Position numbers and translations under genes: made by a program. A stretch of 21,946 nt of DNA, taken from IMG/VR virus record IMGVR_UViG_3300029448_000501, positions 1 to 21,946 of that record; one strand, written 5' to 3'. Below, piece by piece: positions 11,033 to 20,224 of this stretch (positions are counted from its first letter, which is position 1; each line of letters begins with the position of its first letter). The notes beneath the pieces were generated by a model that made no database searches, was not told the DNA's origin, and worked only from the letters and a program-made list of their open reading frames with translations. The stretch comes from a virus.

Positions 11033-11944
11033 TTAAGCAGCTCCTGGAGAACCAAAAATTCCTCTAGGATCAGAGAAACCAAATGAATATCTCTCTCTTG
11101 CCTTAAATCTTACGTTACCTGTGTCAAAGTCACCTTCAACAGCAGTTTTAATTGGACTTCTAACAAACATTTTCATGCCGTTAGGAGCATCCGTCATAAT
11201 GAAGAAAGCATCAGTATCTGTTAAATAATGATTGACTCTATAGCCTTGTGGGATCATTCCCATAGAAGCCATTGCGTTTATGTCATTATCTGCAGTACCA
11301 ACTCTTTGTGGAGTTTTTAAGATTCTTTCTGCAGTGAACTGAAGTTCTTTTGGTATAACCAACTTCGCTCCTTGCATAGCAATCTTTAACCCTCTTTCAT
11401 CTACAAATGCAGCAATATCAATCATAGACTGCTCTAAAGAAGTCTCTGATAAATCTGCAGCTACAGATAATTCATTAGCAAATGTTCCACCTGTTGCAAT
11501 TGGGTGGTCAGTCGCACATAATTCTTTACCATCTCCTCCAGCAAAACTAGAGTTAAAGGCATTATTAAGTACGTTAGCAGCTTTTACCTGCTTAGTGTTT
11601 GCCATTGAACGAGCAAGTGCTCTTGTGTATCGTGCAGCTAATCTGTCGTACAAATTATCTTCAATTGCTTCTTCTGTAATAGCAAATGCCATTGCAATAG
11701 TTTCGTGAGTGTATCTCGCAGTAAAAGATTCAGATGCTTGGTCAAATGTAACCGCTGCACCTTCATTTTTAACTGGAGCACTTCCGAAACCAGTAAGCAT
11801 TACTTCTTCTTCAAAAGCTCTATCAGATGCTTCTGTAGCGAAGATTTCTGCATGTTCGTTTTCGTATTTATTGTATTCTAAGCCAAAGAGAGCGTTTAAA
11901 CCTGGTTCTAACTCTTTGACCAATTGTGATCTTGAAATAGCCAT
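11033..11944 (-). CDS. Major capsid protein (HK97 fold)
   Basis: This 303-residue protein has SRSQLVKELEPGLNALFGLE at the N-terminus, a strand with FEEEVMLTGFGSAPVKNEG, the long helix region YDRLAARYTRALARSMANTK, CATDHPIATGGTF, KLVIPKELQFTAERIL and a C-terminal RYSFGFSDPRGIFGSPGA. This is the familiar HK97-fold capsid family of marine podoviruses and siphoviruses (Mu gpT-like). No long N-terminal delta domain is visible, which agrees with a separate scaffold gene upstream (13097-14044). The start is behind GGGAGATAAAAT. A strong terminator follows the gene. Confidence 0.92.
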   Translation of the reverse strand: MAISRSQLVKELEPGLNALFGLEYNKYENEHAEIFATEASDRAFEEEVMLTGFGSAPVKNEGAAVTFDQASESFTARYTHETIAMAFAITEEAIEDNLYDRLAARYTRALARSMANTKQVKAANVLNNAFNSSFAGGDGKELCATDHPIATGGTFANELSVAADLSETSLEQSMIDIAAFVDERGLKIAMQGAKLVIPKELQFTAERILKTPQRVGTADNDINAMASMGMIPQGYRVNHYLTDTDAFFIMTDAPNGMKMFVRSPIKTAVEGDFDTGNVRFKARERYSFGFSDPRGIFGSPGAA

Positions 11945-14054: not shown

Positions 14055-14480
14055 CTAAAATAATGCGAGGATATCCTCGGGTTTTTCAATTGTTCCAATA
14101 ATTTCATCATCATTTAAAATGCGATGCTCTCCGTATTTTGTTTTAAATCGTGCTCCTGCATAACGTCCATAGACAATAAATTGACCTTCTTTACACCAAG
14201 GGCCTGTTGGAAACTTTGTTTTATCTTGATAGCACAAATCACCCATCTTGATTACAACACCAACAACAGTTGTCATTTGAATGTTTTCTTGAGTTTGTTC
14301 GGAGAGTAGAATACCGCCTTTTGTTTTTTTGTGACCAGACCAAGGTCTGATTAAAAGTCTGTATCCAACTGGATTGGGTAGTTTCTTTATATATTCCTCA
14401 ATTTCTTTTGGTCCTTTTGGAATATTTGCGTCCTCATTATCTTCCTGTGAGAATCGTTCAGGTTTTATCAATGTCTTCAT
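14055..14480 (-). CDS. groES: GroES-like co-chaperonin (T4 gp31-type role)
   Basis: This 141-residue protein has a 36-residue N-terminal extension, then a Cpn10 domain: NPVGYRLLIRPW (strand 1), the mobile loop KKTKGGILLSEQTQEN with the GGILL element that contacts GroEL, VVGVVIKMGD, and a C-terminal FIVYGRYAGARFK..EHRILNDDEIIGTI. Phage co-chaperonins such as T4 gp31 replace host GroES so that the host GroEL can fold the capsid protein. Its place in the head-assembly block, just before scaffold and capsid, fits that role. An inserted loop around residues 83-97 (CYQDKTKFPTGPWCKEG) is longer than in bacterial GroES. The family is clear by eye; the partner is inferred. Confidence 0.82.
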   Translation of the reverse strand: MKTLIKPERFSQEDNEDANIPKGPKEIEEYIKKLPNPVGYRLLIRPWSGHKKTKGGILLSEQTQENIQMTTVVGVVIKMGDLCYQDKTKFPTGPWCKEGQFIVYGRYAGARFKTKYGEHRILNDDEIIGTIEKPEDILALF

Positions 14481-14667
14481 TGAAAATATCCTCTCTTTTT
14501 TGCAGGTCTTTTAGATCCTGAAGCAGTGATTCATATGCACTGAGCTTGCCTTTAGCATACTGTAGTTTTTCAATTGTGTCTATACTGTATACAATATCCT
14601 CTTTTGTTTCTGCTAATCTCTTCTTAATATAGTGTCTTATATTTTGTACTGTATCAATATCAAGCAT
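14458..14667 (-). CDS. Small coiled-coil protein
   Basis: This 69-residue protein is almost entirely helical and charged: HYIKKRLAETKEDIVYSIDT, then KLQYAKGKLSAYESLLQDLK. I recognise this as a short protein of unknown function recurring in the capsid region of pelagic phages. It overlaps the co-chaperonin gene by 23 bases and the upstream 43-residue gene by 8, so the three are probably translationally coupled. It could be an assembly partner, but there is no direct sign of that. Confidence 0.72.
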   Translation of the reverse strand: MLDIDTVQNIRHYIKKRLAETKEDIVYSIDTIEKLQYAKGKLSAYESLLQDLKDLQKREDIFNEDIDKT

Positions 14668-14791
14668 GTTTAAATATTCTTAAATGTGACTTAGGCCCTA
14701 ATTTTTTACGATGTCTAAACCCTAAAGGTTTGTGTCTTCTTCTTGTCTTCTTACAAGGACTATAAGAAACTTGTGTTTGTTTTTTTGCCAT
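14660..14791 (-). CDS. 43-residue very basic peptide
   Basis: From ATG 14791 the frame reads MAKKQTQVSYSPCKKTRRRH, then KPLGFRHRKKLGPKSHLRIF, and stops with TGA overlapping the next start by eight bases. Composition is strongly basic. The ATG directly follows the T-run of a terminator hairpin, so there is no room for an ordinary ribosome site. Translation would need readthrough transcripts and perhaps a weak leaderless or hairpin-exposed start. The overlap with the following conserved gene supports it being real. Confidence 0.6.
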   Translation of the reverse strand: MAKKQTQVSYSPCKKTRRRHKPLGFRHRKKLGPKSHLRIFKHA

Positions 14792-14820
14792 AAAAAAATA
14801 GGGTGCTCTACACACCCTAT
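14792..14820 (-). terminator. Rho-independent terminator after the PqqA-like gene
   Basis: On the minus strand, ATAGGGTG, a 7-base loop and CACCCTAT are followed by seven T residues (arms 14798-14805 and 14813-14820). It lies about 40 bases after the stop codon of the PqqA-like gene and ends directly at the ATG of the 43-residue gene, so it separates the terminase/portal transcript from the capsid-assembly genes. Confidence 0.85.
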
Positions 14821-14860
14821 CCTAAATTAACTTAAATAAAAACAATATAAATATAACAAA

Positions 14861-14941
14861 TTACTTCTCCGCACATGCGTAAGAATTAATTTCTAGTCCT
14901 ACTGATATTTCAGTAATTTTTGGTTGTGACCATAGATTCAT
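14861..14941 (-). CDS. pqqA: PqqA-like precursor peptide
   Basis: This 26-residue frame reads W4-x-x-P7, then KITEISVGLEINSYACAE to near the end. It resembles PqqA, the ribosomal precursor of the redox cofactor pyrroloquinoline quinone. In PqqA the conserved Glu-x-x-x-Tyr pair is cross-linked by the radical-SAM enzyme PqqE; here it is E17-I-N-S-Y21. The W-x-x-P opening, the EI-x-VG-x-E core and the SY-x-x-AE ending match the Methylorubrum/Methylobacterium type of PqqA as I recall it. GGAGA lies six to seven bases before ATG 14941, and a terminator follows. No pqqB-E genes are in the window, so the host enzymes would have to process it. Chance similarity of so short a peptide cannot be fully excluded. 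Confidence 0.72.
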   Translation of the reverse strand: MNLWSQPKITEISVGLEINSYACAEK

Positions 14942-14979
14942 AACATTCTCCGGTTAAAGTTAAACAAATCAAAATCATT

Positions 14980-15378
14980 TTACTCTTTTAAATTTTTTCT
15001 TGCAACCCCTTTACTCTTTTCAAAGCTGCGCATGCCGCCTAATCCGAGTAATGCAAGGGTCAAAGACATAAGTTCACCTGTCTGAAGATTCGGTAATTGA
15101 ACACTAGGGGCCCAAATAGCACACGCCCATTCTGCAATAGGTAATATAAAAAAATTAGTAAACAAACCTAAAGCACAAATCCACATAATAGCAGGTCTAG
15201 CTCCTGAAACAAATAACGATGGATGTTTCGCTTGTTCTGTGTTTGCTTTTGCTTGTTCTTGAGATAGAGCCAAAGTTTGTTTTCTTAACTCTCCTTCTAT
15301 CTTTGTTTTTAAATCTTTGTCCTCGACAAACTTGTCTAGAATTTTACCGGCTACACCGATTACACTTTCTGCGATCAT
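14980..15378 (-). CDS. Holin, 3TM/GTA-holin-like
   Basis: This 132-residue protein has a cytoplasmic helical N-terminus (residues 1-50), then SGARPAIMWICALGLFTNFF with a first membrane span at about 63-89, and a second span LMSLTLALLGLGGMRSFEK at about 103-117. This order, with RPA before the first span and LGLGG-x-R-x-x-E-K after the second, is that of the phage and gene-transfer-agent 3TM holin family (PF11351-type). It would permeabilise the inner membrane to release the M15 lysin, which is encoded about 6 kb downstream. Its ribosome site GGAG is encoded in the final codons of 15378-16106. Confidence 0.75.
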   Translation of the reverse strand: MIAESVIGVAGKILDKFVEDKDLKTKIEGELRKQTLALSQEQAKANTEQAKHPSLFVSGARPAIMWICALGLFTNFFILPIAEWACAIWAPSVQLPNLQTGELMSLTLALLGLGGMRSFEKSKGVARKNLKE

Positions 15379-18423: not shown

Positions 18424-18752
18424 TAACTTAACCTTGTTGGTTTATTCTTACCGAGTTTACATTTTGCAGTTACGAAGTCTCCCTTTTTCAATTTAAGAGG
18501 TTTATCTTCCTTCTCTATTATTGATTGTATACTTGGAATTTTCTTTGCAAAAATATTATATTTATCTCGCGGTCTAAAATCTTTTCTGTAGTTTCTAAAC
18601 TTTGATTGAAACCGATCAATATCTTCATGTTGTAAGCGTCTGCCTCTAGACTTCTTCTTACCCATAATAAGTTCAGACATGGTAGTAGGACCACCAAACA
18701 TCTCTGATAGTATTTTAAACTTTTCTTTTTTTTTTATTGCATCTTCTGACAT
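18423..18752 (-). CDS. Small basic protein between terminase and portal
   Basis: This 109-residue protein has an N-terminal helical part (SEDAIKKKEKFKILSEMFGG), SRGRRLQHEDIDRFQSKFRN in the middle, and KGDFVTAKCKLGKNKPTRLS at the end. I recognise no family. It shares one base with both neighbours (TAATG junctions). A strong AAAGGAG lies inside the end of the terminase gene, but about 14 bases before the ATG, which is longer than usual. A head-completion or packaging-helper role is possible; it lacks the length and obvious helix-turn-helix expected of a small terminase. Confidence 0.7.
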   Translation of the reverse strand: MSEDAIKKKEKFKILSEMFGGPTTMSELIMGKKKSRGRRLQHEDIDRFQSKFRNYRKDFRPRDKYNIFAKKIPSIQSIIEKEDKPLKLKKGDFVTAKCKLGKNKPTRLS

Positions 18753-20224
18753 TAGTAATATGAATACTCCTTTGGGGGTAAATCTTCGTTATCTACATAA
18801 TCTGAGTATAACTCAATAAAGTTCCCTTGGCGATACCTTAACACAGCTTGGGTAGTAGAATCAACATAATCATCATTTGCACCATGCGGAAACGAAGCGC
18901 ATTCATCCATAACATCATCTGCAAATTTTTCTCCATGAGGATACCACACTTGCCCACTCTCAAACACAGGAGCGCATGCATTCACTCTGGTGTATTTATC
19001 GTTGCCCTTACTCGGCACAAACGGAACCACCGGTATACCCATTCTTCTAAACTCTTGAGTCAAAGGTTCTCCACTCGCTTTTTGCTCTATAATAATGGTC
19101 TCTGGTTCCCAATATTTATTAGCATCTAAAGCCACTGCTTTCAATTCTGGAAAATCATACTTACCTCGTATGGCATCTAATAAAATCATGTGAGGCGCTC
19201 CACCCTCTTCTGGAAAAAATACACCCCAAGTGGTAATCGCAGAATAATCAGCAGTCTCCTTTTTTGAAAATGCAGTATCATAACTTTGTATGACATGCAT
19301 CAAATTCGGTATCTGCCCTTTCCAAGGTTGCCACCACTCTCGTTTTAAAATTGCACCCTCCTCAGAAGTAGGCTCTTGCATATACTGAGCCGACCAATTA
19401 CGAATCGGTACCGATGCTTTTATTTTTTCAAGTTCTGACAATTCCCAATACTCTGGCCAAACAGGGTTCCCTGAATCGAGAATCGCGGGAAATGAAATCT
19501 GTTTCCATGTATCTGCTTTAGGCTCCGTTTGAGCCTTCAATAATCTGCCCGTCAAATCATCCTCTGCCCATCTCGTCATAACCAACAATATTGAGCCTCC
19601 AGGTTGTAGTCGTTGTCGAGGACCCGAAGTGTACCAGTCATACGCACGTTCCATCGCAGAATCTGACATAGAATCTTGCTCCGTGTGTGGGTCATCTATA
19701 ATCAACAAATCCGCACCACGGCCCGTGATACTCGCTCCAACTCCAGCAGCATAGTACTCGCCCCCTTGATTTGTTTCCCAACGTCCTTTTGCCTTGGAGT
19801 CCTCACGCAGTTTCACGTCACCAAAAATTTGTTTATACTCCCTTGAATCAATAATGTTACGAACCTTAGAACCAAACCTCACGGCTAATTCTGTGTTGTG
19901 GGAAACTTGCATAATTTTTAATTTTGGATACTTGCCAATGATCCACGCAGGAAAATAGACAGAAGCAAATTCAGATTTAGTATGTCGTGGAGGCATATTT
20001 ATAATGAGCCTTCCTTTTCTGTTGGTTGCAATTTGTGTAAACTGATCTGCAATAATTTGGTGATGGCCCCACTTTTTTCTTTCACGTTCTTTTCTACATA
20101 TAAAATCAGGCCATATCTCTTGAACAAAATATAAAAAATGATCTTGACAAAGTTTGATGTGTTTTATCCAGAGCCTCTCTACTTCGAGCCTCAGCTTATC
20201 TGTGGGCATTAGTTCAGATTTCAT
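18752..20224 (-). CDS. terL: Terminase large subunit
   Basis: This 490-residue packaging motor has an N-terminal ATPase with Walker A-like NMPPRHTKSEF (residues 76-86), Walker B LLIIDDP (173-179), a coupling motif VMTRW (215-219) and a C-terminal RNase-H-fold nuclease with acidic residues in SYDTAF (D316), IIIEQKASG (E380) and NDDYVDS (D451-D455). The size and order are usual. No good ribosome site precedes ATG 20224; ATG at residue 6 is an alternative. No small terminase is recognisable nearby. The palindrome-rich non-coding region directly upstream may hold packaging or control sites. Confidence 0.95.
   Translation of the reverse strand: MKSELMPTDKLRLEVERLWIKHIKLCQDHFLYFVQEIWPDFICRKERERKKWGHHQIIADQFTQIATNRKGRLIINMPPRHTKSEFASVYFPAWIIGKYPKLKIMQVSHNTELAVRFGSKVRNIIDSREYKQIFGDVKLREDSKAKGRWETNQGGEYYAAGVGASITGRGADLLIIDDPHTEQDSMSDSAMERAYDWYTSGPRQRLQPGGSILLVMTRWAEDDLTGRLLKAQTEPKADTWKQISFPAILDSGNPVWPEYWELSELEKIKASVPIRNWSAQYMQEPTSEEGAILKREWWQPWKGQIPNLMHVIQSYDTAFSKKETADYSAITTWGVFFPEEGGAPHMILLDAIRGKYDFPELKAVALDANKYWEPETIIIEQKASGEPLTQEFRRMGIPVVPFVPSKGNDKYTRVNACAPVFESGQVWYPHGEKFADDVMDECASFPHGANDDYVDSTTQAVLRYRQGNFIELYSDYVDNEDLPPKEYSYY

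Follow-up and report, generated by a model that had tools for sequence, protein, structure and literature searches.

The locus analysed here raises the question of whether a frame of only 26 codons, lying in a virus contig and resembling the gene for the PQQ precursor peptide, is a genuine pqqA gene, and, if so, what a phage could do with it. By way of background, PqqA provides the backbone of PQQ, and PqqE, acting with PqqD, joins a Glu residue of the peptide to a Tyr residue; the joining is also noted in PMC9851590. Our analysis indicates that the frame is likely a genuine pqqA that serves a marine phage as an auxiliary metabolic gene, the product of which would be processed to PQQ by enzymes of the host. 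The identity of the peptide as PqqA is well supported and very likely correct, and its translation, its processing, the host and the benefit to the phage are inferred. The DNA stretch analysed, henceforth the window, is a virus record of 21,946 nt (IMGVR_UViG_3300029448_000501, positions 1 to 21,946), and its relevant features are as follows.

18752..20224, minus strand: terminase large subunit, 75% identical to that of the Pelagibacter phage HTVC023P
16090..18423, minus strand: portal-like protein, the query for finding relatives (position after the terminase, gene order of relatives)
14980..15378, minus strand: holin-like protein (GTA_holin_3TM, phrog_3427), the upstream neighbour of pqqA (profile matches)
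14947..14951, minus strand: ribosome-binding site GGAGA (sequence; 6 nt from GGAG to ATG)
14861..14941, minus strand: pqqA, 26-aa PQQ precursor peptide MNLWSQPKITEISVGLEINSYACAEK (PqqA models, conservation in relatives, pN/pS)
14792..14823, minus strand: terminator-like hairpin (about 14823-14795) and U run 3' of pqqA (folding)
14458..14667, minus strand: 69-aa protein of unknown function, downstream, conserved at this position among phages of the group (family f6)
14055..14480, minus strand: GroES-like co-chaperonin (Cpn10), downstream neighbour (Pfam and NCBIfam)
11033..11944, minus strand: major capsid protein, Phage_capsid_4 (Pfam)

The original prediction, made from the sequence alone, had placed at 14861-14941 a 26-codon gene with W-x-x-P, EI, VG-x-E and Glu-x3-Tyr motifs, a ribosome site GGAGA and a following terminator, inside the head-assembly region. 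The gene held, and its strand, left unstated there, is the minus strand: the frame 14941..14861 comprises 26 codons for MNLWSQPKITEISVGLEINSYACAEK followed by a stop. The plus-strand reading of the same interval was ruled out, as the frame is full of stops. All the predicted motifs are present in MNLWSQPKITEISVGLEINSYACAEK (W4-x-x-P7, E11-I, V14-G15-x-E17 and E17-x3-Y21), with E17 and Y21 as the Glu-x3-Tyr cross-link pair, and the features expected of a PqqA-type peptide (a length within about 20-30 residues, W-x-x-P and G-x-E) are met. The ribosome site held as well (14951-14947). As for the terminator, folding did find a hairpin followed by a U run (-15.5 kcal/mol, z=-3.0), which a simple terminator scan did not flag. 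The location was roughly right: pqqA sits among virion genes, between the holin-like gene and GroES, with the terminase, portal-like and holin-like genes upstream and GroES, a coiled-coil protein and the capsid gene downstream. Directly after the terminator-like hairpin begins a small basic ORF that had not been listed (MAKKQTQVSYSPCKKTRRRHKPLGFRHRKKLGPKSHLRIFKHA, 43 aa, 14660-14791, minus strand).

The portal-like protein gave no significant Pfam match and is so named because its gene follows the terminase and because DSL-LC04 has its portal at the same place in the order. The window represents the same phage type as the pelagiphages HTVC023P and HTVC027P (the terminase is 59% identical to that of the latter), and in HTVC023P, the nearest isolate, the order of GroES and capsid genes after the large portal-like gene matches that in the window. 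In contrast to the window, both isolates lack pqqA.

The assignment of the peptide to PqqA, for which an HMM search had been proposed as a check, was borne out by two curated models. MNLWSQPKITEISVGLEINSYACAEK scores 29.1 bits against Pfam PqqA PF08042 (gathering score 21.1, E=1e-6) and 36.1 bits against the NCBIfam equivalog TIGR02107 (cut-off 20, E=4e-9), the latter match covering the full model (1-21 of 21); no PqqA match was found in any of 14 control genomes. The peptide thus shares with alphaproteobacterial PqqA, the PqqE substrate encoded in pqqABCDE operons, a full-length match, W-x-x-P, Glu-x3-Tyr and the core found in bacteria of the HIMB59 order. Unlike in those operons, the gene in the window is phage-encoded and stands alone, and pqqB-E were not seen in the phage neighbourhood of pqqA.

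The same peptide is encoded at the corresponding position of dozens of further contigs, which represent sister phages. The expectation that related phages keep the frame with its Glu and Tyr was met, with no frame loss and no loss of either residue among the copies found. To have an unbiased set, we used IMG/VR loci fetched by the portal-like or GroES protein rather than by pqqA itself. The PqqA profile detected 32 copies among the 37,316 short frames of these loci (overlapping loci of a single contig account for some of these copies). All were intact with both Glu and Tyr, and no degraded copies were found there down to E=1. In the window's phage group, the 21-codon core occurs in 14 different DNA versions but yields only four peptides (pS 0.34, pN 0.03, pN/pS 0.087), which points to strong purifying selection; pN/pS is 0.21-0.27 in five other phage groups. 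The distribution of the gene is patchy: it is present in 12 of the 46 loci that allowed a judgement on absence, and these are dispersed across the portal tree. The loci L007 and L008, without pqqA, fall inside a pqqA-bearing clade of that tree.

The core of the peptide, EISVGLEINSYAC, is identical to the PqqA core of marine Alphaproteobacteria of the HIMB59/MED-G10 type, and a genome scan showed that the core EISVGLEINSYACAEK also belongs to such bacteria (L197, L199). In the HIMB59 order, pqqA is present in 31/32 genomes, often in 2-5 copies, and pqqB scores over the cut-off in 22/32. Equivalog models confirm the pqqB-pqqC-pqqD-pqqE operon, and 20/32 genomes have a PQQ alcohol dehydrogenase that scores over the cut-off and lies near the pqq genes. 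In G051, for example, this dehydrogenase (C5:64871) is close to pqqA (C5:59268), pqqB (C5:59415) and pqqE (C5:61424). More broadly, pqqE scored over the cut-off in 15 of the 20 bacterial genomes tested, with PqqE reaching 575 bits in bacteria sharing the phage core. The genes pqqBCDE, for which a check of hosts had been proposed, occur in the probable host order. That the window's own host is a HIMB59-order bacterium is an inference and has not been proven; the nearest isolate, HTVC023P, infects Pelagibacter. One HIMB59-order genome, G123, holds an 18.8-kb contig of an HTVC023P-type phage (portal 56% identical) without pqqA, which could be a binning error. Six genomes of the order (G047, G050, G061, G062, G064 and G126) have 4-5 separate pqqA copies, most of them distant from the pqq operon.

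Taken together, we regard the identity as PqqA as well supported because two curated models are passed above their cut-offs, Glu-x3-Tyr is present in every sister copy, the gene is under purifying selection and its core is identical to that of pqqBCDE-bearing bacteria.

Beyond the reach of the original prediction, the gene turned out to be widespread. Scanning IMG/VR with a degenerate DNA pattern that describes the core of PqqA retrieved at least 119 stretches, whose neighbour genes form about 14 sets, with at least ten gene neighbourhoods of podovirus, T4-like, T7-like and other kinds. Groups 0 and 1 are of the HTVC023P type, group 2 is T4-like with gp32 and gp59, group 5 comprises phages with DUF6267, which we take to be T4-like, groups 8 and 7 have a T7-type terminase and a nozzle protein, respectively, and the remaining groups have different terminases or ribonucleotide reductase. 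In this set, the search pattern itself accounts in part for the constancy of W, P, E, V, G, E, N and Y; A-C-A at core positions 19-21, left free by the pattern, is conserved too. A second phage peptide type, KEVAVGLEINCYACAEI, found in other groups, has its matches in further MAGs of marine Alphaproteobacteria, and pqqE is present in most of these. The phage DNA closest to the window's copy is that encoding WSKPTITEISVGLEINSYACA peptides in the T4-like group 2 (89%). Two pqqA-bearing phage contigs, L223 and L171, are binned into Flavobacteriaceae and Maricaulis MAGs, probably through binning errors.

The scan suggests that pqqA is likely common in marine phages of Alphaproteobacteria. PHROGs has no PqqA family. 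When 50,697 phage records were searched by tblastn with three variants of PqqA, no convincing match was obtained, and the gene is thus not known from any isolate of that collection. Gene callers usually impose a minimum length, which a gene of 26 codons does not reach, and we attribute the fact that phage pqqA has so far been largely invisible to this limit and to its absence from PHROGs. No quinoprotein (PF13360) was found in 50 pqqA-bearing records.

The relatives also have an RNA leader. A hairpin of the form P1-GA-P2-CG-P3-loop-P3'-AAC-P2'-P1' lies ahead of the pqqA ribosome site in groups 0, 2, 4, 5 and 9 (examples of the 32-nt hairpin are L019:9020-9051, L285:622-650 and L381:6396-6427). 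Among 32 distinct sequences, changes on both sides are seen in 7/10 pairs and 98.4% of cells are paired; the observed pairing was reached by 0/500 shuffles, and structures slid along the alignment dropped to 21-60%. Single-sequence folding energy was unexceptional in 2/3 cases, and the case for the structure therefore rests on covariation. When IMG/VR was scanned for the leader alone, 99 stretches were obtained in all, each followed by a pqqA frame, inside which the contig ends in two of them. A calibrated leader model matched 57 of the 84 sources searched, in three phage groups, and gave no match in groups 1, 3, 6-8 and 10-13. The same model found no leader upstream of pqqA in the window, where only 38 nt separate the holin stop from the pqqA ATG. 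With short cis-regulatory leaders such as riboswitches and protein-binding operators the element shares a conserved internal loop, covarying stems and a place just before the ribosome site; unlike known ones, it matches no family among the Rfam covariance models, and it is a property of the window's relatives, not of the window itself. At three phage loci, an alphaproteobacterial-type (permuted) tmRNA is encoded (L376:1-238, L381:6107-6390 and L398:2269-2560); no more than about 20 nt lie between its end and the pqqA leader in L381 and L398, compared with about 830 nt in L376.

The cellular distribution of the leader bears on what it may sense. None of 121 bacterial pqqA copies carries it. The whole genomes of the HIMB59 order yielded one strong match (E=2.6e-8), situated in G051 (isolate AG-896-A16) directly before rpoH, encoding sigma-32 (L492, i.e. 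G051:C2, C2:10946-10979, minus strand). This element closely resembles the leaders of group-4 phages, and the resemblance extends to the second hairpin and the ribosome site. Other readable rpoH upstream regions contain no such element, and the leader model also found none in those genomes. Two weak matches (28 bits) in another genome were taken as chance, being inside coding sequence, at least one of them in what we take, from our own reading of the translation, to be a lipoamide-dehydrogenase-like frame. A class-wide leader scan scored few candidates per genome and was insensitive.

A reading of the leader as a PQQ riboswitch is weakened by its absence from bacterial pqqA and by the position of the only cellular match before rpoH. 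Since that sole strong match in the HIMB59 order precedes rpoH, the leader may possibly derive from a host stress gene and need not sense PQQ. A second helix is predicted to cover the ribosome site in some leaders, an arrangement that would suit translational control. A bolder reading, which we consider no more than possible, is that the leader represents a new class of cis-regulatory RNA by which translation of phage PqqA would be set by a signal of the infected cell, be it PQQ, a pathway intermediate or a host protein. If true, phages would tune a host cofactor pathway via a RiPP precursor and a sensor of their own, and the leader offers a regulatory switch that is open to testing and has no counterpart in Rfam.

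As to the role of the peptide, the original prediction proposed that the phage supplies precursor to host enzymes, and this remains the best and likely reading, in the absence of biochemical data or of any data on expression, processing or fitness. The infecting phage would make PqqA, which host PqqD and PqqE would bind and cross-link between Glu17 and Tyr21, host PqqB and PqqC together with proteases would complete PQQ, and the cofactor would activate a periplasmic quinoprotein alcohol dehydrogenase of the host. Of the components of the pathway, only PqqA is consumed one for one, the enzymes turning over, and for this reason a 26-codon gene may be enough to raise PQQ output without the phage carrying any enzyme. 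A phage bringing pqqA alone could thus raise the flux provided that the peptide is limiting, and the role as supplier of the only consumable depends on the assumption that PqqA limits PQQ in the host. Conversion of PqqA to PQQ has been observed in a cell-free setting, when the peptide was added to a Gluconobacter extract (PMC9851590). An importance of dosage fits the up to five pqqA copies kept by bacteria, both in the HIMB59 order and in one methylotroph with five copies (PMC9851590). A possible caveat is that PQQ made late in the lytic cycle might arrive too late to help.

Other explanations fare less well. The peptide might be a decoy occupying host PqqD and PqqE, thereby slowing PQQ synthesis or freeing SAM or iron-sulphur capacity. 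A competitor would likewise need to resemble PqqA, and the product was not measured here, but one would expect a decoy to have lost one of the two cross-linked residues, whereas Glu and Tyr are both kept in all copies of the unbiased set, as is A-C-A, which lies outside the search pattern; we deem this alternative unlikely. Less plausible still is a new RiPP, matured by another radical SAM enzyme into another product. PqqA does belong to a wider world of radical-SAM-modified peptides, but the whole-length equivalog match and the high-scoring PqqE of bacteria with the same core make this very unlikely. Both possibilities had been raised in the original prediction; neither is excluded, yet neither has positive evidence, because the phages carry the unmodified alphaproteobacterial consensus.

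It could also be argued that pqqA is a passenger, a small cassette moving among phages and retained for reasons unrelated to PQQ, for example along with the leader. The patchy presence on the portal tree, the close match of the window's copy to DNA of T4-like group 2 and the moron-like combination of gene, leader and terminator are compatible with this view. However, strong purifying selection acts on the amino-acid sequence in six groups, and the peptide types follow the phage group and the probable host, so that this explanation, too, seems unlikely. A chance ORF without function, for which one could invoke the very short length and the negative terminator scan, is all but excluded by the model scores, the dozens of conserved in-register copies and pN/pS.

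Phage pqqA as such is already known. It was reported in the Lake Baikal methylophage VP_266, together with methanol dehydrogenase (PMC7678222), and viral pqqA, pqqE and pqqD were reported as counts from reservoir sediments (PMC13188868); in both cases, as here, an auxiliary metabolic role was proposed for viral pqqA. Methylophilaceae are the hosts of VP_266, a T4-like virus from fresh water, whereas the phages described here are marine and of several kinds, encode an alphaproteobacterial peptide without a quinoprotein and have an RNA leader in many groups. A RiPP survey (PMC11118758) counts PqqA as a RiPP family and mentions its co-expression with defence systems, without presenting it as a phage gene in the relevant passage. 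Searches combining pelagiphage with PQQ and PQQ with riboswitch returned nothing on the gene or the leader in the open full text searched, subscription papers and preprints being outside its scope. Within the literature that could be searched, the marine breadth, the quinoprotein-free form, the leader and a link to alkB are thus likely new. If our reading is true, phages could control the metabolism of abundant ocean bacteria cheaply: providing the sole consumable of the PQQ pathway would let them steer the alcohol oxidation that depends on this cofactor.

The link to alkB concerns 18 phage loci (including L346, L448, L302, L362, L432, L359, L428 and L460) in which a gene for an AlkB-like alkane 1-monooxygenase (PDB 8sbb, E=6e-30) lies upstream of pqqA on the same strand, an arrangement of T4-like phages. 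The alkanol produced by AlkB would, by inference, be a substrate of the PQQ alcohol dehydrogenase, and an alkane monooxygenase ahead of pqqA would tie virus infection to hydrocarbon oxidation. In L456, the contig ends inside pqqA downstream of alkB. The distance from the end of alkB to the Trp codon of pqqA is 157-167 nt in most loci and 789 nt in three.
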